From positions 124,001 through 188,000 of the forward strand of contig NZ_KB907789.1 of the NCBI RefSeq assembly GCF_000382205.1: a DNA stretch of 64,000 nucleotides, in the 5' to 3' direction. The notes below the pieces were generated by a model. That model was given only the letters and a program-made list of their open reading frames with translations, ran no database searches and was not told the origin of the DNA. Positions 52,931 to 64,000 of the stretch are shown here, one piece after another. Position numbers and translations under genes: made by a program. This stretch comes from Dyadobacter beijingensis DSM 21582 (GTDB taxonomy: Bacteria; Bacteroidota; Bacteroidia; Cytophagales; Spirosomataceae). Numbering within the stretch: position 1 is the stretch's first letter; every line of letters starts with the position of its first letter.

Positions 52931-54670
52931 ATGAAGCCAGGCAACACCTTACTCATAATTACCATATCGGTCCTTTGGGGCTGTTTCAAAAAACAGGAAA
53001 AAAAGGAAGAAAGCCAATCGCCCGACAGCACGACACGGATCACCGTTTGCTACAATCCTCAAACGACCGATATGGATTGGTATAGTTCGAAAAAAAAGGC
53101 GCCCCTGCTCGAAGGGCTGCAAGGCATTAATTTTAACATAACCACCTCTAAACCGGCAGCTCAGGCGTATTTCAACCAGGGTATGATGCTCGCTTACGGT
53201 TTCAACCATGCCGAGGCCGCACGGTCGTTCCATGAGGCCATCCGGCTCGATTCTGCGTGTGCCATGGCGCAATGGGGCTTCGCGTACGTGCTCGGCCCGA
53301 ACTACAATGCGGGTATGGAAGAAGATAACTTTCAACGTGCCTGGAAAGCCGTTCAAAAAGCACAGCAACTTTCCGCCGGTTGCACGCCGAAGGAAAAAGC
53401 GCTCATAGTGGCACTCGCCGCACGTTATGCGGAGGTCCCGCCGGCAAACAGAATGCCGCTGGATATCGCTTATGCCCGTGCAATGGAAAAAGTGTACCGC
53501 CGGTTCCCGTCCGACCCGGACATCGGAGCGATTTACGCCGAGTCGATCATGGACCTGCATCCCTGGGATTTATACGAGAAAAAAACCAAAGCGCCGAAAT
53601 CGTGGACGCCGCAGTTGCTGGCCGTATTGGAAAATCTCCTGAAAAAGAACCCGGAACATCCCGGCGCGCACCACCTGTACATACATGCGCTGGAAGCTTC
53701 GGCAACCCCGGAAAAAGCACTCGCCTCGGCCGCCCTGCTCGACACCCTCGTGCCCGGCGCCGGCCATCTGCTCCATATGCCGTCGCACATTTATATCAAC
53801 ACGGGCGATTACCACCAGGGCTCGTTCTCCAATATCCGGGCCGTCGGGGCCGACAGCTCCTACATCACCGCCTGCCACGCTCAGGGTGCCTACCCCCTCG
53901 CCTATTTTCCTCATAATTACCATTTTCTGGCGGCCACCGCCACACTCGAAGGCAACGCCGGCCTCGCCTGGACGGCCGCGGAAAAGGTACAGCAGTACAC
54001 CGCCAAAGCGGTTATGCGGACGCCCGGTTGGGGTACGTTGCAGCATTACTACACGATCCCCTATTACATTGCCGTCAAGTTTTCGATGTGGGACCGCGTG
54101 CTGTCGCTTCCCGGCCCGGCCAAAGACCTCGTGTACCCGCGCGCGGTATGGCATTATGCGCGCGGAATGGCGTTTTTGGGTAAGCGAGACCTCTCCCGCG
54201 CGCAGGAAGAAATGAGCAGCCTCGCCCGGCTGGCAAAAGACACCACCCTGAACGCCATCACCGTCTGGAACATTAATACGGGCAGTGATCTGGTGAAAAT
54301 AGCCTCCAAAGTGTTGGCCGCCGGCCTGGCCGCCCGGCAAAACCAGCTCGATAAATCGGCCGCGCTGCTACGGGAGGCCGTTTTGATCGAAGATAACCTC
54401 AATTACAACGAGCCGCCGGACTGGTTCTTCTCCGTTCGCCACCACCTCGGCGCGGTGCTGCTCAAAGCCGGCAGAAATGCCGAAGCCGAGCGCGTTTACC
54501 GGGAAGACCTGCTCACCTGGAAGAAAAACGGTTGGGCATTGATAGGCCTTTACAACGCTTTAATGCAACAAAAGAACACGGGTGAAGCGCAATCCGTGAA
54601 GTCGGCATTTGACCAGTCGTGGAAGTATGCCAATGTAAAAATCAGCAGCTCATCGACGATCGCCGACTAG
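52931..54670 (+). CDS. TPR-repeat lipoprotein with conserved His motifs
   Basis: A 579-residue predicted lipoprotein: the signal MKPGNTLLIITISVLWGC ends at the lipobox Cys18. TPR-like repeats run from about 70 (FNQGMMLAYGFNHAEAARSF) to the end. Three His-rich segments stand out between repeats: GAHHLYIHALE, LLHMPSHIYINTGDYHQG and FPHNYHFLAATA. These recur in a family of uncharacterised bacterial TPR proteins and suggest metal or ligand binding. Its function is unknown; envelope location follows from the signal. Confidence 0.82.
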   Translation: MKPGNTLLIITISVLWGCFKKQEKKEESQSPDSTTRITVCYNPQTTDMDWYSSKKKAPLLEGLQGINFNITTSKPAAQAYFNQGMMLAYGFNHAEAARSFHEAIRLDSACAMAQWGFAYVLGPNYNAGMEEDNFQRAWKAVQKAQQLSAGCTPKEKALIVALAARYAEVPPANRMPLDIAYARAMEKVYRRFPSDPDIGAIYAESIMDLHPWDLYEKKTKAPKSWTPQLLAVLENLLKKNPEHPGAHHLYIHALEASATPEKALASAALLDTLVPGAGHLLHMPSHIYINTGDYHQGSFSNIRAVGADSSYITACHAQGAYPLAYFPHNYHFLAATATLEGNAGLAWTAAEKVQQYTAKAVMRTPGWGTLQHYYTIPYYIAVKFSMWDRVLSLPGPAKDLVYPRAVWHYARGMAFLGKRDLSRAQEEMSSLARLAKDTTLNAITVWNINTGSDLVKIASKVLAAGLAARQNQLDKSAALLREAVLIEDNLNYNEPPDWFFSVRHHLGAVLLKAGRNAEAERVYREDLLTWKKNGWALIGLYNALMQQKNTGEAQSVKSAFDQSWKYANVKISSSSTIAD

Positions 54671-54811: not shown

Positions 54812-55348
54812 ATGAAAACCATTTCCGTTCCTGCCCGCGAGCAGGTGAACCCGCAGTCACAGGAACTGTTCGACGCATTGACCAAGCGGCTCGGCCGGGT
54901 ACCTAATCTGTATGCGACGATCGGATATTCGCATGCGGCATTGAAAATGATGCTTGACGCCGAGGAAACGCTCGGCCACGGGAAGTTCAGTGCAAAAGAG
55001 CGGGAGGCCGTTTACCTCGTGGTGTCGCAGGTGAACCAATGCGAGTATTGCCTCGCAGCCCACACTATTCTGGCTACCAAAAGGGGCTATTCACAGGAGG
55101 AGACGATACTTTTTCGTAAAGGTTTCGCATCCGATCCGAAGCTGCAAACGGCGATACAGCTCGCCAAATCGATCGCCGAGAACAAGGGCGACGCGGACGA
55201 AACGTTGAAGGAGGCATTCTTTGATGCCGGATACGATGAGGCGGCGCTGATGGACCTGATCGGCCTGGTAACCATTCGCACATTTACGAATTATGTTTTC
55301 GTCATGAGCAAAATCCCCGTCGATTTTCCGGCGGCGGAAAAAATCTAG
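54812..55348 (+). CDS. Carboxymuconolactone decarboxylase/AhpD-family protein
   Basis: A 178-residue all-helical protein with the AhpD-type redox motif ECYCLAAH-like segment NQCEYCLAAHTI at about 73-84: the CxxC pair plus His expected for peroxidase-related activity. N-terminal text (PQSQELFDALTKRLGRVPNL) matches the alkylhydroperoxidase-like group. It overlaps by 4 bp, tail to tail, with an AraC regulator gene. A role in removing organic peroxides is likely by family and unproven here. Confidence 0.9.
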   Translation: MKTISVPAREQVNPQSQELFDALTKRLGRVPNLYATIGYSHAALKMMLDAEETLGHGKFSAKEREAVYLVVSQVNQCEYCLAAHTILATKRGYSQEETILFRKGFASDPKLQTAIQLAKSIAENKGDADETLKEAFFDAGYDEAALMDLIGLVTIRTFTNYVFVMSKIPVDFPAAEKI

Positions 55349-57254: not shown

Positions 57255-58502
57255 TCACGTCGCCTTGAACAGCACCTGGCCGTCCTTCTGCAAATACCAG
57301 GCCGTAACCGGGTTGAAGTGGTACCCCATATTGCCGCCGCGTGCAGCCATGAGTTGTTTTAGAAATGGCTGTACATACCCGGTTTCGTCCACCGTGCGGC
57401 TCATGATCTCGGTAGGGTTGCCGTCCCAGTTCCAGAGGTATCGGAATGCCGCAATGGCTTTGTCAAGCACCGGTTCCTGCAATGCGGCATGCTGCCAGGT
57501 CTTTCCGGCATCGGTACTCACTTCCACGCGCGCCACTTTGCCGCGCCCACTCCACGCAATGCCCCGTATTTCAATCCAGCCCTTTTCCACCCTGGCGGGA
57601 TAGGAAGGGAAAGTGATGACTGAACGGGCATCCATCGTGAAGCTGAACTGCCTGATCTTGCCGCCGCCCACGGCTTCGGTGTATTTGGAAGTTTCCTCGC
57701 GGGTCATAAACGGCGCGTCGGAGAGCTCGATGCGCCGGAGCCATTTCACATTGGCATTCCCCTCCCAGCCGGGCAGGAAAAGCCGTATCGGGTAGCCCTG
57801 TTCGGGCCGGATAGCCTCGCCGTTCTGGCCGTAGGCGATGATCGCGTCGTCCCAGCCCTTGTGCACGGGCACGCTGCGCGTCATCACGGCCGCGTCCCCG
57901 CCCTCGGCCAGGAACCAGCTCGCTTTCGGGTTCACGCCCACTTCCCGGAACAATGTCGATAGTTTCACGCCCGTCCATTCGCTCTGGCTCGTGAGCCCGC
58001 AAATTTCCTGCGGACGGATCTTGCCATCGTTCGCGCCGCGGTAATTGCCCGAGCATTCGAGAAATGCAATGCGGGACACGGACGGAAACCGTTTGAGATC
58101 GGCCAATGTGAACACCATCGGCTTGTCGACCATACCGTGTATTACCAGCTCGTGCTTGGCAGGATCGATGGCCGGGACGCCGCCGTGGTGCCGCTCGTAA
58201 TGCAGGTCGGAAGGCGTGATCATGCCCTGCAAATCCTGCAATGGCGTACGGGAAGACGTATCGGAATATATTTTCGCCAATTTTTCGAACGGTGAGCGGG
58301 TACCGAGCGTGCCGGGTGGAACGCCGGGGACTTTGGTAGGGTCTTCGGGACCGCGCTCCGAGGCCGTCAGCGCGGCCTGGAATGCCTTTCCGCTGGCCGT
58401 TTGCACGAGTACCACCGATGCGGCGGCCGCGCCCGCCAGCAGGTTGCGCCGGCTGATCCTGCCGCCGGTAATGGATTTATCCTGATCGTCGCGTTGCTGC
58501 AT
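57255..58502 (-). CDS. Tat-exported sulfite oxidase-family molybdoenzyme (SorA/SoxC-like)
   Basis: From the ATG at 58502 (MQQRDDQDKSITGG) it is 415 residues. A twin-arginine signal (ISRRNLLAGAAAASVVLVQT, residues 16-35) sends it to the periplasm with its cofactor. The sulfite-oxidase fold follows, with the Mo-ligand Cys150 in AFLECSGNYRG, and a C-terminal dimerisation domain (TDAGKTWQHAAL). SorA and SoxC-type proteins oxidise sulfite or a protein-bound sulfane sulfur and pass electrons to a cytochrome c. The cytochrome gene here ends two bases before its start, a strong sign of a functional pair. Actual substrate not shown. Confidence 0.9.
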   Translation of the reverse strand: MQQRDDQDKSITGGRISRRNLLAGAAAASVVLVQTASGKAFQAALTASERGPEDPTKVPGVPPGTLGTRSPFEKLAKIYSDTSSRTPLQDLQGMITPSDLHYERHHGGVPAIDPAKHELVIHGMVDKPMVFTLADLKRFPSVSRIAFLECSGNYRGANDGKIRPQEICGLTSQSEWTGVKLSTLFREVGVNPKASWFLAEGGDAAVMTRSVPVHKGWDDAIIAYGQNGEAIRPEQGYPIRLFLPGWEGNANVKWLRRIELSDAPFMTREETSKYTEAVGGGKIRQFSFTMDARSVITFPSYPARVEKGWIEIRGIAWSGRGKVARVEVSTDAGKTWQHAALQEPVLDKAIAAFRYLWNWDGNPTEIMSRTVDETGYVQPFLKQLMAARGGNMGYHFNPVTAWYLQKDGQVLFKAT

Positions 58503-58503
58503 A

Positions 58504-59100
58504 TTATCTGATTTCGGGGCCATCCACGCGGTCGTCGGGGACGAACTTGTCGCGGGCCGGCATTTTGATTTGCGGAAGGGTTTTGGCATTCAGTTTCGCA
58601 TTCTCCGCCAGCAGGCCATTGGCATGGAGGAGGAAGGCCGTCAGGCTGTATACCTCCTGGTCGGTGAGCGAGCCGGGCTGGTTGAACGGCATCGCCCTGC
58701 GAATGTAGTCGAATACCGTGGTGGCATATGGCCAGTAGTTGCCGATTGCCCTGATGCGCCGCGCCCGGGTGGTATCGCCGGCCACCAGGCGGTCGTTGGG
58801 GCCTTCGGTACCGGTGGCACCGTGGCAGCCCGCGCATTTCAGCCCGTAAATGGCCCTGCCTTCCGTGGCACTGCCCTCGCCTTTGGGCAGGCCTTTACCG
58901 TCGGGCCGGACGTCGATGTCCAATGCCGCGATTTCCGCCGCCGTAGCCACCCGGCCGAAGCCGAACTGCGCCGGGTGTGAAAGGGTGTCAGCCGACAACA
59001 CACCTGGGTGCTGCCGGCTGATTTTGAGGCTGGTACCCGTGAACGCCACCGTCACGAGCACCAGCGCGGTGCCGATATACTTAATCGTACTTCCCTGCAT
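58504..59100 (-). CDS. Monohaem cytochrome c (SorB/SoxD-like partner)
   Basis: A 198-residue protein from the ATG at 59100 (MQGSTIKYIGTALVLVTVAF), with a signal peptide or anchor at 7-25 and one haem site, CAGCH at 89-93. The likely distal Met is in RRAMPFNQPGSLTDQEVY. The pattern (FGFGRVATAAEIAALDIDVR, then PDGKGLP) matches cytochromes encoded beside sulfite dehydrogenases. Its start overlaps the end of the DoxX-like gene by 20 bp, and its stop directly precedes the molybdoenzyme start, showing tight co-expression. It should carry electrons to the terminal oxidase chain. Confidence 0.9.
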   Translation of the reverse strand: MQGSTIKYIGTALVLVTVAFTGTSLKISRQHPGVLSADTLSHPAQFGFGRVATAAEIAALDIDVRPDGKGLPKGEGSATEGRAIYGLKCAGCHGATGTEGPNDRLVAGDTTRARRIRAIGNYWPYATTVFDYIRRAMPFNQPGSLTDQEVYSLTAFLLHANGLLAENAKLNAKTLPQIKMPARDKFVPDDRVDGPEIR

Positions 59101-60766
59101 TGAGCGTGCTTTTAGCCAGAACATAAGGTCTCTCCACCCGGTCCAGCACTACATAAATCGAATCTTTCTTCTCGTTGATCCCTTGCAGGACCACCCGCGA
59201 CCCGTCGGTTGTAGCATACCTCAGGACCATGCGGTTGCGTTTGTCGCGGCGGGGCTTCTCGGCAAACTCGCGGTCGCGGCGGGCCGACCAGCCCCGCGGG
59301 TCTATCAGCTTGTTCTCGTCCCCGATCCTGTCGAGCGCGTCTTGGGGAATCCAGTTGCGGTCCTGGCCATCCTTTTTGTCTGGGCCATTGCCCCGCTCGT
59401 TGCCGCGGCGTCCTTCGCGTGGTGCATTGCTGTCACCGCCTTGTTTCTGCCGGGCCTCGCGCTGTTGCAGCTGCCCTACCCCGTCGCGCAGGCCTCCTTT
59501 GGCATATTTATCCTGCAAATACAAGGTGTGCTCCAACGTATCGGCCAGGTAATGGAACACCCGCTGGCCGCCTCCCGTACCCGTGAGCTCGAACGTGCGC
59601 CCGACGTCACGCATGGGTGCGCCGCCGCCATTGGAGAGGTCCAGCGGCGTCGGTTTGTTTACTTTGAATGTCAGCGTCGTCCAGTTTTCGAATGTCGCCC
59701 ATTGCCACCTCAGCGTGTCCGTCGGTGAGTATGGGATGGTTTTGTTATTGATTTTAAACTCCGTGACCTGATAGTTGCCCCGCAGGGTCCTGATGCCCGC
59801 CGTCGAAGGCTGTTTGTACGGGTCGAATTTGAAATTGACATACTGCAGATAAAACAAGTATACGAGGAACAGCCCGAAAACGCCGGCTTTCAGGCCGTAG
59901 CGTACATATTGCTGCCATTTCGGGGAAAATGCGGGATAAAATTTCTGAGGTACGGTAAAGCGTTCAAGGACAATCAGGTTCCAGACTTTTGGAATATCCC
60001 TGATCAGCAAAAACGCCGCCAGCAGCACAAAATAGGAGCTGTACACATGCACGCCGCCGTCATAGGCGAAATTGACATATACAATATCCCCCAACGCGCC
60101 CAGGAGCAGAATGGCCCCCAGCGTGGTAGTGCCCCTGAAAAACAGCAATATGCCCGCCGCCAGCTCCACCACCCCGGCAAATACCTGGTACCAGGGCACG
60201 ATGCCCACGGAAAGCCAGTAAATTTTTTGCAGGGTAAAATCACCGAAATTCGTGTTCAGCAGGCCGTACGACGGGTAAGGCATCTGCGTCGGCATCAGTT
60301 TGGTAAACCCAAAACCGATGATCCCGATGCCCGCCCGGTAGCGTACCACCACGCGGATCCAGTAATAGAGCAGGTTATACTCTTTCGGCTCTCGTTTGGC
60401 GACCTTCACAACGGCCGTCCAGATGAGCCCCACCACGATGGCCGCCAGCAAGGTTATGATCCAGGTCGCGTAGCCTTCGAGCGGCGAGCCGAAGATGGTG
60501 CGACCGAAAATGTCGAGCCCGGAGCCGAACCGTGCGATGTCGTATACGTCGCGGTAATGCAGGCGCGTCCAGTCGAAGGTCACGAGGTCGGTGTACCAGC
60601 TGGGGCTGTTGGGAATCGACATGGCGAGAAAAAACACGAATGCGATCCGGAAAAGGACCTTCTGCCATTCGGGCCAGCGGCTCGCGGCGGTACGGCCGGT
60701 GCCGCCGCCTTCCGCTTTTTCGGTGAGCGCCACGTCTTCGTCTGCGCTTGTTCTGATCGTTGACAT
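59081..60766 (-). CDS. DoxX-like membrane protein with C-terminal extracytoplasmic domain and charged insert
   Basis: A 561-residue protein. Residues about 30-330 hold seven or so membrane helices with DoxX-like features (GIGIIGFGFTKLMPTQMPYP, QVFAGVVELAAGILLFFRGT). The C-terminal part (335-561) is a beta-type domain with no membrane helix. At about 420-470 it carries a Gly/Arg/Lys/Asp/Gln-rich low-complexity insert absent from its upstream paralogue. DoxX/DoxD proteins form thiosulfate:quinone oxidoreductase in some archaea; most bacterial relatives are uncharacterised. Placed between SusD and a sulfite-oxidase-type enzyme, a sulfur electron-transfer role is an inference. Confidence 0.8.
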   Translation of the reverse strand: MSTIRTSADEDVALTEKAEGGGTGRTAASRWPEWQKVLFRIAFVFFLAMSIPNSPSWYTDLVTFDWTRLHYRDVYDIARFGSGLDIFGRTIFGSPLEGYATWIITLLAAIVVGLIWTAVVKVAKREPKEYNLLYYWIRVVVRYRAGIGIIGFGFTKLMPTQMPYPSYGLLNTNFGDFTLQKIYWLSVGIVPWYQVFAGVVELAAGILLFFRGTTTLGAILLLGALGDIVYVNFAYDGGVHVYSSYFVLLAAFLLIRDIPKVWNLIVLERFTVPQKFYPAFSPKWQQYVRYGLKAGVFGLFLVYLFYLQYVNFKFDPYKQPSTAGIRTLRGNYQVTEFKINNKTIPYSPTDTLRWQWATFENWTTLTFKVNKPTPLDLSNGGGAPMRDVGRTFELTGTGGGQRVFHYLADTLEHTLYLQDKYAKGGLRDGVGQLQQREARQKQGGDSNAPREGRRGNERGNGPDKKDGQDRNWIPQDALDRIGDENKLIDPRGWSARRDREFAEKPRRDKRNRMVLRYATTDGSRVVLQGINEKKDSIYVVLDRVERPYVLAKSTLNAGKYD

Positions 60767-60806
60767 ATGGGTAATATTTTGATTGACAGTTAAATGTGCC
60801 TTGCGC

Positions 60807-62222
60807 TTACAACTTAAACTCGCCCCTGCGACCGACCTTCTTCACTTCTTCGAAGAGGTATTTTTTATTGATTTTCTTCAAAAGCACCTGCAACGAGTCG
60901 CGGCCGCCGCTTACGCCGGAAAGGTGGATGGTAGCGCTGTCGGGACGGCTGTAATGCAGCACGAGCTGGTCTGCCGCATTCACTTTATTGGTCAGTTTCA
61001 AGGTTTTGGAAGCGTCGTCGAAGTCATAGCCGTAGTAATGGCGACCGCCAGAGCCTGCAAATTCGTAGTCTCTTTTGGCATCGTCGAAATGGATCTGCTC
61101 CACATTGGTGGAATCGATCACCTTCGGCGGGGCGGAACGAATGCTGAGCGTGGCCCATTTTTCGAATACCACATCTTTCCAACGAACCGAATCCAATGCC
61201 GAATAGGCCAGCGTATCGCCATTGACGATAAATTGCTCCACATTATAAAGGCCCGCGGCCCCGGCAATGCCCGGCTTGGTCGGGTAGTGATATGGGCCCG
61301 AATGGTAGCCCGCGTAGGTTTTTGAACCGTACACCACGACGAAAAAAAGGATGAATGCGGCCTTCAACGCCACCCGCCCGAAGCGCAGCTTCGAATTGCC
61401 GAGATCGGGTTTGAAGAGGTTCGGGACCGTCGGCTTTTCGAGTGCCAGCAACCGGTAGAGCCGGTTGGCATCGAATGCGAACAGGAACAATGCGAGCACG
61501 ATCAGGTAGAAGCTGTACACATATTCACCGCCCTCATAGGCGAGGTTGGAGAAGAACACATTACCGATAAATGGAATGATAATGAGCGTAGCGATGGTGG
61601 TAGTTTTCCGGTGGAGCAACAACAGGCCGCCCACCAGCTCCACCAATCCGAGGAACGACTCGTAATTAGGTACCACGCCCAGGCTCATCGCGAACAGCTT
61701 CCATGCGCTGAAATCGCCGTAGGGCGTATTCAGGTTGCTGATTGACGGCAGCGGCGCCTGTAACGGATAGAACTTAATAAAACCATAGGCGATCAGCCCC
61801 GCCGCCAGCCGGTAACGGACGATCACCCGCAGCCAGTAATATGCCTGGTTGTAATCGCGGCGGTCCTTATCGCGCATACCCCAGTAAATAGCGCCGCCAA
61901 CGGCGATCACCAGCACGACGAGCCAGTTCAGGAAAGTATCCTGTTCGCCGAAAAAGCGCGGCTGGTAGCGTGCCAGGTCAAAAATGTCGCCGTAGGTGAG
62001 GTTCAGCCAGTTAATCTGGAACACGCGCCGGTAATATTTCCAGTCCAGCGGAACGCTCTGGATCGTAAAATAAATGAATGCGACGCGAAATAGCGCCTTT
62101 TCGAGCGGGCTCCACGCGCCCGGTGTTGCCAAATCCGGTGTGGTGCGGCCGTTGCCGGGAGCGGCATATCCGGCCTGCAATGCAACCGTAGAAGGATGCT
62201 GGTAAATCGGTTTCTGTGCCAT
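60807..62222 (-). CDS. DoxX-like membrane protein, paralogue of the downstream gene
   Basis: The start is the ATG at 62222 (MAQKPIYQHPSTVALQAGYA), giving 471 residues; the longer frame to 62738 runs back through the SusD gene and is not real. Membrane helices cover about 30-310, with the DoxX-like stretches LAAGLIAYGFIKFYPLQAPL and LGLVELVGGLLLLHRKTTT. The C-terminal domain (320-471) matches the paralogue's domain strand for strand (NVEQFIVNGDTLAYSALDS versus its TEFKINNKTIPYSPTD). It starts 11 bp after the SusD stop and ends 40 bp before the paralogue, so it belongs to the same operon. Confidence 0.82.
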   Translation of the reverse strand: MAQKPIYQHPSTVALQAGYAAPGNGRTTPDLATPGAWSPLEKALFRVAFIYFTIQSVPLDWKYYRRVFQINWLNLTYGDIFDLARYQPRFFGEQDTFLNWLVVLVIAVGGAIYWGMRDKDRRDYNQAYYWLRVIVRYRLAAGLIAYGFIKFYPLQAPLPSISNLNTPYGDFSAWKLFAMSLGVVPNYESFLGLVELVGGLLLLHRKTTTIATLIIIPFIGNVFFSNLAYEGGEYVYSFYLIVLALFLFAFDANRLYRLLALEKPTVPNLFKPDLGNSKLRFGRVALKAAFILFFVVVYGSKTYAGYHSGPYHYPTKPGIAGAAGLYNVEQFIVNGDTLAYSALDSVRWKDVVFEKWATLSIRSAPPKVIDSTNVEQIHFDDAKRDYEFAGSGGRHYYGYDFDDASKTLKLTNKVNAADQLVLHYSRPDSATIHLSGVSGGRDSLQVLLKKINKKYLFEEVKKVGRRGEFKL

Positions 62223-62233
62223 TGGGTCAGGGA

Positions 62234-63568
62234 TTAGTAGCCGGGATTTTGTTTCAATGCCTTGTCGATCAGCAGCTGCTCGGCCGGGATGGGCAATACC
62301 AGCCGGTTGGCGTCCGTCACGCTGAGTACCGCCGCGGCGCGGCCTGTGCGCACGAGGTCGAACCAGCGGTGCGGTTCCAATGCGAACTCGACCCGGCGCT
62401 CGTTCTCGATCGCCAGCAGGAGCTGTTCGGAAGTGGCCGCGGTGCTTTTGGCAATGCCGGCGCGTTCGCGGATCGCATTCAGGTCGGCGAGGGCGCCGGT
62501 AAGGTTGTTGGTGTTCGCGCGGGCTTCGGCGCGGATGAGGTACAGCTCGGCAATGCGGATCACGAATGTCGGGTCGGTGGCCGGGCTCCGGTAGTACATG
62601 TTGCCGTACCAGCGGCCCTGGTTGTCCTTGGCTACGAGCGTACTGCGGTTTCCGCCGATCTCCGGATTGTTCACAAGCGCCACGAATGCGTCGTTTGGTG
62701 CCCACTGGCGCGTACCGCCTTTTTCCTGCGGCTGCCACTGCCCCCGATGACCGTTCGTTTCGTTAACACTGTAAAATATCTCGAAAACAGACTCGGTAGT
62801 CCCTCTCGCATCGTTCGCGAAGAAAGCATTATAGGGTTTCACGAGCTGGTAGCTGGCCGCGTCGGCGATGATCTTCGTGGCGTATTCCTCCGCCTTCGCG
62901 TAATCTTTTTGATACAAATAATACCGCGCCTTCAATGCCCACACCGTCTTCTGCGTAGCACGGAAACGATCGGTCGTCGCGGGCAGCAGCGGCTCGGCGG
63001 TGTTCAGATCGGCCAGCACCTGGGCGTACACCTGCTCCTGCGTGGCACGCTCGATCCCCCGGTTGTCGGATGGTGAGCCGGTCGGTTTGGTGACGATCGG
63101 CACGCCGCCCCAAATGCGCGCCAGATCGAAGTAGGCCAATGCGCGCAGGAAATGGGCCTCGCCCACGATCTTGTTTTTCAACGCGTCCGTTAGCAGCGCA
63201 TCCTGCACGGCGGGTACTTTTTCAATCACGTGGTTGATCCGGTTGAGCGAACTGTAAATGCCGCTCCAAACCGAAGCCACCGTCGAGTTTTCCGCATTGA
63301 CGCGGTGGTTAATAAATTCCTGGATCTGCGATTGCGAGCCCGTCCATTGAATATTATCGCCCGACAAATAGCCGATCGACTGAAAATCAACGCTATAATA
63401 GCTGCGGAAGGAGTCGTACACGCCATTGATCGCCGTTTCGGCCGATGCCTTGTCCACGATCGTCTGCGCATCGGAAATCGACGAGCGCGGCTGCACATCA
63501 AGGAAGCTGTCGCAGGAGCCGAGGCCGATGATCAGCGAAAGCGGCAGGATGAATTTAAATGCTTTCAT
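62234..63568 (-). CDS. SusD/RagB-family lipoprotein of the DoxX/sulfite-oxidase operon
   Basis: From the ATG at 63568 (MKAFKFILPLSLIIGLGSCD) it has 444 residues, with the lipobox Cys at residue 19. SusD landmarks: KIVGEAHFLRALAYFDLARI, VWALKARYYLYQKDY, ELYLIRAEARANTNNLTGAL and the C-terminal LPIPAEQLL with QNPGY. It is shorter than the two SusD proteins of the glycan locus, typical of the RagB-like group. Its gene starts 11 bp after the SusC stop codon. Together they form an outer-membrane importer whose cargo is likely the substrate or product of the downstream redox genes. Confidence 0.94.
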   Translation of the reverse strand: MKAFKFILPLSLIIGLGSCDSFLDVQPRSSISDAQTIVDKASAETAINGVYDSFRSYYSVDFQSIGYLSGDNIQWTGSQSQIQEFINHRVNAENSTVASVWSGIYSSLNRINHVIEKVPAVQDALLTDALKNKIVGEAHFLRALAYFDLARIWGGVPIVTKPTGSPSDNRGIERATQEQVYAQVLADLNTAEPLLPATTDRFRATQKTVWALKARYYLYQKDYAKAEEYATKIIADAASYQLVKPYNAFFANDARGTTESVFEIFYSVNETNGHRGQWQPQEKGGTRQWAPNDAFVALVNNPEIGGNRSTLVAKDNQGRWYGNMYYRSPATDPTFVIRIAELYLIRAEARANTNNLTGALADLNAIRERAGIAKSTAATSEQLLLAIENERRVEFALEPHRWFDLVRTGRAAAVLSVTDANRLVLPIPAEQLLIDKALKQNPGY

Positions 63569-63579
63569 ATACGCAATCA

Positions 63580-64000
63580 TTAGAATGTCAGGTTAAAGCC
63601 CAATTGAAAACTGCGGGGCTGCGGCGGGGTACCGAGGTCGATACCTTGCTCGTTTTGCGCGCTCGAAGCGCTGGATTCGGGATCGAGGCCGGTGTACTTG
63701 GTGATGGTGAACAGGTTGCTGGCCGTGGCGTAAATGCGCAGCGAGCTGATGTGGCGCACGGGCACGGTGTAACCCAATGTCAGGTTACGCAGGCGCGCGA
63801 ACGAGCCGTCTTCGAGCCAGCGGCTGCCGCCGTCTCGGTAGTTGTTCACATTCACGCCGTCGGGGCGCGGCACGTCGGTTACGTCGCCCGGCTTCTGCCA
63901 GCGGGCATTGTTGCTGGCGAAAATCACGCGCGCCGCGTCGCGGGCACCACCGCCTTCGCCGAAGAACTTGTTGTGGTTATACACCTTGTTACCGTAGCTG
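63580..64000 (-). CDS. SusC/RagA-family TonB-linked transporter, C-terminal part (cut by window edge)
   Basis: About 139 C-terminal codons are present, beginning beyond 64000. The sequence has the usual SusC ending: GGSRWLEDGSFARLRNLTLG, YTVPVRHISSLRIYATASNL, FTITKYTGLDPES, and a final strand LGFNLTF that closes the barrel. It is the first gene of the operon seen in the window and pairs with the following SusD gene. The N-terminal regulatory domain and the plug are outside the window. Confidence 0.93.
   Translation of the reverse strand, partial: SYGNKVYNHNKFFGEGGGARDAARVIFASNNARWQKPGDVTDVPRPDGVNVNNYRDGGSRWLEDGSFARLRNLTLGYTVPVRHISSLRIYATASNLFTITKYTGLDPESSASSAQNEQGIDLGTPPQPRSFQLGFNLTF

Follow-up and report, generated by a model that had tools for sequence, protein, structure and literature searches.

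What does an outer-membrane importer of the SusCD type, a class best known for the uptake of glycans, do in one row with redox genes? We addressed this question for a gene block of Dyadobacter beijingensis DSM 21582 at the end of the window, i.e. the whole 64,000-nt stretch of DNA that was analysed. Our main reading, to which we give a probability of roughly 55%, is that the block constitutes a Bacteroidota module for uptake and oxidation of a sulfur-bearing organic nutrient.

Layout and conservation of the gene block

The open reading frames bore out the proposal of a sequence-only reading that six minus-strand genes lie here head to tail in the order SusC, SusD, DoxX, DoxX, cytochrome c and molybdoenzyme, with intergenic distances from overlap to 40 bp (Table 1). 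The six belong to an 11-gene same-strand array that extends beyond the window. A gene for a cyanophycinase-like S51 peptidase is located 23 bp upstream of SusC2, and beyond it follow SusD1, SusC1, FecR and ECF sigma genes, with gaps below 50 bp according to the listed ORF ends. The automatic ORF call places the molybdoenzyme start at 58589, within the cytochrome gene. A start at 58502, 1 bp past the cytochrome stop, retains the twin-arginine signal, in line with the Tat export proposed earlier for this protein.

Table 1. Genes of the block within the window
Feature	Position	Strand	Basis and remarks
SoxC-type molybdoenzyme, twin-arginine signal, 415 aa	57255..58502	-	TIGR04555, PF00174 + PF03404, PDB 2xts_A
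SoxD-like cytochrome c, single CxxCH	58504..59100 (alternative start 59124)	-	PF13442/PF00034, PDB 2xts_B
DoxX2, 561 aa, without cysteine	59081..60766	-	Model: helical membrane part + C-terminal barrel; weak Pfam MauE/DoxX
DoxX1, 471 aa, without cysteine	60807..62222	-	Paralogue of DoxX2, 36% identical
SusD2 outer-membrane lipoprotein	62234..63580	-	PF14322, PF07980; orthologous across genera
SusC2, 3' end	63580..64000	-	Whole protein 1014 aa, extends past the window to L005 12625; TIGR04056

The neighbourhood comparison across genomes showed that the SusCD pair and the redox genes co-occur elsewhere, so the proposed association was not refuted. Gene order is identical in all 14 Dyadobacter genomes with a SoxC over cut-off (37 genomes of the genus examined). 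Within the host's order, Cytophagales, SoxC was found in 34 of 390 genomes; DoxX2 is present in 34/34 of these and lies at most 15 kb from SoxC in 32. SusC and SusD are among the four genes upstream of DoxX2 in 76 of the 80 named loci (the best 80 of 167), and the genera carrying the block include Dyadobacter, Spirosoma, Chitinophaga, Niastella, Runella and Emticicia. Together, these three observations counter a chance neighbourhood, and we regard it as practically certain that the SusCD-DoxX-SoxCD block is real and conserved. Its recurrence in many relatives of this soil-type host suggests a little-known route for using sulfur-containing nutrients. The parts can also occur separately. SusCD-DoxX blocks without SoxC are found in 8 of 42 genomes of the order, which indicates that SoxCD is an add-on, and SoxD-SoxC occurs without adjoining DoxX in G009 (fragmentary, L102), in G310 (L132) and on one Spirosoma plasmid, so SoxCD need not have the DoxX pair beside it.

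The SoxC-type molybdoenzyme and its cytochrome partner

The molybdoenzyme belongs to the SoxC type (TIGR04555, 488 bits vs. a cut-off of 420) and contains PF00174 and the dimerisation domain PF03404. It stays below the SorA/SorT cut-offs (NF052245, 134/600 bits; NF052247, 124/570 bits). The closest PDB matches of the enzyme and the cytochrome are 2xts_A (E 2.4e-89) and 2xts_B (E 1.4e-32), from Paracoccus pantotrophus SoxCD, with SoxC and the N-terminal domain of SoxD as best solved relatives. Our own twin-arginine pattern matches 56 of 71 SoxC. The sequence-only reading had named methionine sulfoxide in protein repair as an alternative substrate, and an MsrP-like enzyme does share the Oxidored_molyb superfamily; yet the MsrP model (NF003767) yields 20 bits vs. 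a cut-off of 207, and both PF03404 and a cytochrome c partner are present. The scores exclude this substrate, and the chance of a repair function is close to nil.

Mo-Cys150 of the enzyme is accompanied by Arg104, Arg155, Trp176 and Tyr224, the same four residues as in the substrate pocket of sulfite-oxidising enzymes (SO/SorA). The pocket was mapped from the PDB-search alignments with the chicken sulfite-oxidase numbering, in which Arg450 is a further pocket residue; the comparison covered the Mo-Cys and these four positions. Bacteroidota SoxC form one clade in the tree (100/100), with Arg104, Arg155 and Trp176 each in 73/73 sequences and Tyr224 in 71/73. In contrast, four canonical alphaproteobacterial SoxC carry Gly, Tyr and Phe instead of Arg155, Trp176 and Tyr224 (0/4). 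Allomeiothermus SoxC, which adjoins SoxYZ, has the Trp and Tyr and lacks the Arg, and the pocket Arg is missing from six of six proteobacterial stand-alone SoxC examined. In a second sulfite-oxidase-family protein of the D. beijingensis genome, inspection by eye shows an Arg equally far from the Mo-Cys.

Cys89 and Cys92 are the only cysteines of the SoxD-like cytochrome, which leaves one haem site vs. two in the Sox system. A single CxxCH was found in 72/72 SoxD of the named loci (best 80 of 167), none of which shows the di-haem form that marks the Sox system; outside Bacteroidota, both canonical SoxD have two motifs and that of Allomeiothermus has one. A search for SoxY (PF13501) found none in 18 genomes, among which one is 81% complete, but did detect it in one of four control records, an Allomeiothermus plasmid. 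Nor did SoxB (TIGR04486, cut-off 550) exceed the cut-off in any of 18 genomes, the relatives below it scoring 273 bits (G325), 260 bits (G356) and at most 85 bits. With no SoxY and no SoxB over cut-off in these 18 genomes, the Sox thiosulfate-oxidising multienzyme system was rejected, and soxC of these Bacteroidota genera in metagenomes should not count as evidence of thiosulfate oxidation. Sox-system SoxCD being the top match, the pair might instead serve as a sulfane dehydrogenase whose carrier is not SoxY. The sulfite-pocket Arg, Trp and Tyr, the lack of a SoxY match in the 18 genomes and the cysteine-free DoxX proteins speak against this, and we consider it very improbable. Judging from the sequences, SoxCD is probably a periplasmic sulfite dehydrogenase, and its substrate is most likely sulfite, in a last step, and not the imported nutrient itself. 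The earlier claim of a periplasmic sulfur oxidation feeding the respiratory chain thus gains support from the SoxC equivalog, the pocket residues and the cytochrome c partner.

SoxC with a one-haem cytochrome outside a sox operon also occurs in organotrophs such as Filomicrobium, in some cases next to sulfonate, dioxygenase or exporter genes. According to passages of PMC4433239, a putative SoxC-SoxD pair and TauE lie beside the Filomicrobium methanesulfonate cluster and were assigned to sulfite oxidation. Unlike the present block, the stand-alone stretches examined hold no SusCD or DoxX pair. In passages of PMC6704655, one species of Dehalococcoidia and four of Gemmatimonadetes are reported to have soxCD without other sox genes, its role being called not clear. 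Here, a large SoxCD clade of this kind is found in a close-knit gene neighbourhood and shows signature residues that predict its substrate. The combination of SusCD, DoxX and SoxCD is not described in passages of PMC4003848, PMC4433239, PMC6704655 and PMC9606717, nor among the literature matches listed, some of which were uninformative because 'SusC' was also hit within words like 'susceptible'.

The DoxX1-DoxX2 membrane pair

DoxX1 and DoxX2 match no Pfam or NCBIfam family at default cut-offs. The earlier label 'DoxX-like' is weakly supported, the best Pfam values (MauE, E 0.0069; DoxX, E 0.0078) being below cut-off. Relaxed Pfam matches of 23 DoxX2-type members comprised MauE in 14 and DoxX in 4, all below cut-off, and no DoxA or DoxD family. 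A PDB sequence-profile search with the DoxX2-type alignment gave no match, and Foldseek returned nothing below E 0.001 for either model (best for DoxX2, gamma-carboxylase, 0.08; for DoxX1, anti-sigma factor, 0.0044). Both models, of modest confidence (pLDDT 65 and 63), consist of a helix bundle and a lipocalin-like barrel. In the VIA fold comparison, which listed no DoxD structure and in this respect excludes nothing, the transmembrane part of DoxX2 aligned with NACHO/TMEM35A (Z 11.2, rmsd 2.8, 109 residues), a value that may reflect a common arrangement, as can Z below about 13 in helical bundles. The pair may resemble DoxDA thiosulfate:quinone oxidoreductase in a suspected DoxX-like membrane bundle, and it has sulfur neighbours; it differs in its tandem arrangement and in the barrel that the models show fused to the bundle. 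That it acts as a quinone-linked sulfur oxidase is a tentative suggestion. An IGDE patch in the DoxX2 linker, considered as a SoxCD docking mark, occurs in 39 of 81 DoxX2 and is not diagnostic.

In sister blocks L082 and L084 a secreted rhodanese follows DoxX1-DoxX2. The corresponding protein in L137, a block with a TauE exporter and a sirohaem gene as well, is a metallo-beta-lactamase-rhodanese protein with no NCBIfam match over cut-off, presumably resembling persulfide dioxygenases. Such neighbours, like the NACHO/TMEM35A alignment with the above caveat on its Z, would fit an oxidation of sulfane sulfur such as thiosulfate, polysulfide or persulfide. In this scheme SusCD imports polysulfide or a sulfur-loaded carrier, the DoxX pair takes the part of a thiosulfate:quinone oxidoreductase, and the last oxidation falls to SoxCD. 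The lack of DoxA/DoxD among the relaxed matches and of SoxY in the 18 genomes argues against it; S51 peptidase, amidohydrolase and amino-acid permease genes nearby suggest that the substrate is organic, and we know of no SusCD transporter that carries small inorganic anions. We hold this scheme to be unlikely.

The importer and a possible route of sulfur oxidation

The whole SusC2 protein scores 863 bits against TIGR04056 (cut-off 368) and adjoins the SusD2 lipoprotein, whose signal ends at Cys23, giving a TonB-linked SusC/RagA protein next to SusD as in SusCD uptake systems. The nearest solved relatives of both are SusCD/RagAB-type proteins, RagA, a peptide importer, being second best for SusC2. 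Outside Dyadobacter, median identities of the block SusC and SusD are 67.6% and 64.4% (the latter from 62 SusD). The comparison of the block proteins with other SusC/SusD is partly circular, as the two groups were told apart by our own 45% cut. Pairwise-distance congruence between block genes, SusC excluded, was moderate (correlations 0.26-0.58) and was not relied on. Orthology of the block SusC/SusD across genera suggests one ligand class, and the odds that this is an organosulfur compound are about even.

Like polysaccharide utilization loci and RagAB peptide-uptake operons, the array combines SusC, SusD, ECF sigma and FecR; unlike them, it holds redox genes and not carbohydrate-active enzymes. 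None of the latter was found by Pfam/NCBIfam among its 11 genes, and a glycan locus was rejected on this ground. The S51 peptidase falls just below the cyanophycinase cut-off (TIGR02069, 122.7 vs. 126.6 bits), and its four PDB matches are cyanophycinases or cyanophycinase-like. Its gene adjoins SusCD in this and other genomes, which, along with the kinship to RagA and the SusCD-DoxX blocks without SoxC, would suit import of an ordinary peptide or glycan, with DoxX-SoxCD as a co-regulated protection or side-energy module removing sulfite or reactive sulfur. Yet the block SusC/SusD are conserved as much as the redox genes, they precede DoxX in nearly all of the best 80 of 167 loci, and variant blocks keep adding sulfur genes, so we assign this explanation a low probability.

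Of the earlier proposal of importer-coupled organosulfur oxidation, the link of the redox module to a SusCD pair orthologous across genera stands, while we infer the organosulfur or sulfated ligand, the sulfite source and the redox role of the DoxX pair. In the sulfur-nutrient module, SusCD with TonB would bring an organosulfur nutrient into the periplasm, where the S51 peptidase or an amidohydrolase might free it in some species. Its sulfur would be released or oxidised to sulfite, perhaps aided by the DoxX pair with electrons passing to quinone; SoxC would convert sulfite to sulfate, and SoxD would hand electrons to cytochrome c and a terminal oxidase. A more specific version, in which the ligand is an organosulfur polymer or conjugate, the DoxX-lipocalin pair a new family oxidising sulfur with quinone, and orphan SoxCD the finisher to sulfate, would make the block a sulfur counterpart of a polysaccharide utilization locus. 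This is speculative; if true, it would let Bacteroidota that are widespread in soil and on plants draw energy from organic sulfur with no need for a Sox system. For the SusCD importers of the six genera named above, the module also suggests a role in sulfur use that can be tested.

Sulfur-related genes in and beside blocks of other genomes speak for the module, and the lack of three such genes here speaks against it. The D. beijingensis block is without the FAD oxidoreductase gene that occurs in 51 of 80 blocks (best 80 of 167). YeiH-family genes (PF03601 over cut-off, TIGR00698 below) are present in 23 of these 80, and in many relatives a YeiH-type carrier might export sulfate or sulfite made in the cell. 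YeiH has no match in the D. beijingensis genome and is found in 5 of 14 Dyadobacter genomes. An alkanesulfonate-monooxygenase relative, likewise without a match in this genome and present in 2/14, adjoins SoxD-SoxC together with amidohydrolase and amino-acid permease genes in two genera. Among further neighbours, an Rrf2 gene occurs in L083; a Cys/Met PLP enzyme in L183 and a sodium:sulfate-symporter-family protein in L188 are each confined to a single locus, and DUF4395 is found in five.

Gene order of the block and its recurrence

The order SusC, SusD, DoxX-like, DoxX-like, cytochrome c and molybdoenzyme, claimed for the minus strand in the sequence-only reading, was borne out in the 7.4-Mb genome (window at G000:C4:124001-188000), with spacing between neighbouring genes ranging from an overlap to 40 bp. 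We refer to the DoxX-like membrane proteins as DoxX1 and DoxX2, and to the last two products as SoxD and SoxC. Upstream and in the same direction are genes for an S51 (cyanophycinase-like) peptidase, a second pair (SusD1 and SusC1), FecR and an ECF sigma factor. The block is followed on this strand by an aldo/keto reductase gene and one for an AraC regulator, neither of which adjoins SoxC in the other 13 genomes of the genus; both were left out of the block. The TPR protein found in the window shares 27.6% identity over 594 aligned positions with a TPR protein neighbouring DUF1684 and SoxD-SoxC genes in other genera.

Features of the block, its surroundings and compared loci
Feature	Position	Strand	Remark
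SusC-SusD-DoxX1-DoxX2-SoxD-SoxC block	window 57255-64000	-	
S51 peptidase	23 bp upstream of block SusC	same direction	secreted
SusC1	upstream of S51/SusD1	same direction	carries STN domain
AhpD/carboxymuconolactone-decarboxylase-type protein	window 54812-55348	+	by AraC regulator and aldo/keto reductase, just downstream of block
TPR protein	window 52931-54670	+	apart from block, opposite strand
Second sulfite-oxidase-family protein, own genome	L006 9002-10315 (G000:C1:24001-25314)		Arg five residues past Mo-Cys
SoxD-SoxC remnant, genome G009	L102, G009:C39:51000-70900		SoxC split over two short matches
Second SusCD between DoxX2 and SoxD	L171 16478-19112		also in L183, L192, L195, L197, L210
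Long gene stretch, genome G758	L281 and L282, G758:C5:1000-39900	one strand	about 36 kb

SoxC scored over the cut-off in 14 of 37 genus genomes, and the same 14 carry DoxX2 at 68% identity or more. For wider comparison, named genomes were scanned with a DoxX2 alignment and the best 80 of 167 loci were kept, including 15 from Dyadobacter, mostly the same genomes as in the genus set; Dyadobacter loci were also the closest to our own among those kept. The sequence-only reading had tied the SusCD pair to the redox genes, and their co-occurrence elsewhere did not refute it: all six genes stood in a single order and strand in 14/14 genus genomes with SoxC, and SusCD, in some cases S51, and DoxX1-DoxX2 led directly into SoxD-SoxC at 59 of the best 80 of 167 loci. 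The remainder of these 80 had SusCD upstream and SoxC further on (10), SusCD and no SoxC within the fetched stretch (7), or no SusCD upstream (4), some contigs ending nearby. Contiguous blocks among the best 80 of 167 also contained a FAD oxidoreductase (51), a YeiH-family gene (23) or S51 (11); the upstream SusC1-SusD1-S51 part was present in 3 of the 14 genus genomes.

Compared with our own proteins, block SusC showed a median identity of 67.6% (63 non-Dyadobacter loci) and block SusD of 64.4% (62 loci), both among the best 80 of 167, vs. 33.1% (27 proteins) and 28.3% (15 proteins) for the remaining SusC and SusD of the retrieved stretches, with the two sets split at 45% identity, a cut of our choosing. 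On sequence grounds, the SusCD pairs of the blocks are predicted to be one importer type.

At the order level, SoxC was detected in 34 and DoxX2 in 42 of 390 genomes, and all 34 SoxC genomes also had DoxX2. The two genes were at most 3.5 kb apart in 23 genomes, 3.5-15 kb in 9, 25 kb in one and on separate contigs in one (G775). The hypergeometric figure for this co-occurrence, 10^-41, takes no account of relatedness among the genomes and should not be read as an actual probability. Sampling 395 genomes from across the phylum gave SoxC matches over the cut-off in just three: our own, G356, which carries the complete block, and G310. The trait is thus patchy.

Family assignment and substrate pocket of SoxC

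The molybdoenzyme reached 488 bits on NCBIfam TIGR04555 (sulfite_DH_soxC, cut-off 420) and did not reach the cut-off of the SorA model (134 vs. 600 bits). A methionine sulfoxide repair enzyme, the alternative named in the sequence-only reading, was rejected, as the MsrP score was 20 bits vs. a cut-off of 207. The closest solved structures were the two chains of a SoxCD entry, 2xts_A for the molybdoenzyme and 2xts_B for the cytochrome. A single CxxCH was present in 72/72 SoxD from named loci among the best 80 of 167, as in four stand-alone proteobacterial SoxD and that of Allomeiothermus, whereas two canonical SoxD have two each.

We also considered a Sox system as the identity of the block. 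Profile search found SoxY in 0/18 genomes, although a strongly diverged SoxY may escape such a search; the identical search detects SoxY in Allomeiothermus. SoxB reached the cut-off in 0/18 genomes. By these searches, the block does not appear to be a Sox system.

We aligned 84 SoxC sequences: 73 from Bacteroidota (our own, 71 from named loci among the best 80 of 167 and one from a plasmid), 5 beside SoxYZ and 6 stand-alone proteobacterial. Arg104 and Mo-Cys150 were present in all 84. Arg155 was found in 73/73 Bacteroidota sequences and in none of the SoxYZ-neighbouring (0/5) or stand-alone (0/6) ones; the respective counts were 73/73, 1/5 and 5/6 for Trp176, and 71/73, 1/5 and 5/6 for Tyr224. 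Sulfite oxidase 2a9d has Arg, Cys, Arg, Trp and Tyr at these five columns, which we take to be the substrate-pocket residues Arg138, Cys185, Arg190, Trp204 and Tyr322 of chicken sulfite oxidase, unlike SoxC of 2xts with a gap and Gly, Tyr and Phe at the pocket columns. Bacteroidota SoxC formed a single clade (support 100/100), the deeper order being unsure owing to long branches outside it. Since these proteins carry the sulfite-oxidase pocket residues, sulfite is most likely the substrate of SoxC. Matches resembling the second sulfite-oxidase-family protein of our genome were seen in most genomes of the genus.

A passage of PMC4433239 assigns a SoxC-SoxD pair by a methanesulfonate gene cluster to sulfite oxidation. 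Passages of PMC6704655 note that soxCD occurs in other phyla unaccompanied by the rest of the sox genes, call its role there unclear, and describe DoxX-family proteins wrongly annotated as DoxD. The parts of the block are of known kinds; for the fixed SusCD, DoxX and SoxCD combination and for the pocket signature, no description was found in the full-text literature searched, mostly outside subscription journals.

The DoxX pair and the separability of SoxCD

DoxX1 is a paralogue of DoxX2 (36% identity), and neither has a Pfam or NCBIfam match at default settings. In relaxed scans of 23 DoxX2-type members, the best hits to MauE and DoxX had E values of 0.007-0.008 and stayed below the cut-off; the DoxX2-type alignment had no match among PDB sequences. 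The AlphaFold model of DoxX2 (pLDDT 65) has a helical part and a C-terminal barrel. Its residues 131-259 resemble NACHO/TMEM35A (Z 11.2, 2.8 A over 109 residues), a member of the DoxX-like group, and the barrel (residues 325-546) resembles lipocalins (Z about 7-8); either likeness may be merely a common arrangement.

Eight order genomes (G305, G575, G666, G690, G717, G731, G739, G747) have DoxX2 without SoxC. All contain SusCD-DoxX1-DoxX2, seven a FAD oxidoreductase, five S51 and five YeiH (at least one of these two in each); the DoxX pair of G575 is of a more distant type. Conversely, SoxD-SoxC without adjoining DoxX was found in G310 (L132), where the gene preceding SoxD runs in the opposite direction, on a Spirosoma oryzicola plasmid, whose genes recur on the SoxC contig of G775, and in G009. 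The last, without SusCD or DoxX and next to thioredoxin-like and DUF1684-like genes, looks like a decayed copy. These three cases suggest that SoxCD can work, or persist for a time, away from the DoxX pair.

The SusCD recurrently inserted between DoxX2 and SoxD is mostly accompanied by a TPR and a DUF1684 protein. Single DoxX-type proteins adjoin an arylsulfatase in L091 and L097. Another such protein occurs in each of L085, L087-L090 and L094-L096; in the examples inspected (proteins read in L088 only) it is flanked by thioredoxin-like and di-haem MauG-type peroxidase genes and, across from these, by a SusC-like gene.

Possible sources of sulfite

Variant neighbourhoods included SusCD-DoxX1-DoxX2-rhodanese in L082 and L084 (the latter checked against Pfam), DoxX1-DoxX2-Rrf2 accompanied by a MetNIQ-type transporter in L083, and FAD oxidoreductase and YeiH in L135 and, by resemblance, L136. 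L137 combines a sirohaem gene and TauE on the upstream side with a metallo-beta-lactamase-rhodanese protein on the downstream side. On the Spirosoma oryzicola plasmid and in G758, from another genus, SoxD-SoxC occurs together with SusCD and genes for an amidohydrolase, an amino-acid permease and a luciferase-type monooxygenase. The last comes nearest to alkanesulfonate monooxygenase, at 247 bits against a cut-off of 518 that it does not reach. Such neighbourhoods would fit sulfite being freed from a sulfonated or similar compound. This monooxygenase had no match in our own genome or in 11 of 13 other Dyadobacter genomes tested, which counts against a general sulfonate route. In our organism sulfite may be supplied by the DoxX pair or by enzymes elsewhere. 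The long G758 stretch comprises TauE, three SusCD pairs, three DoxX genes, the monooxygenase, amidohydrolase and permease, S51, SoxCD and a FAD oxidoreductase.
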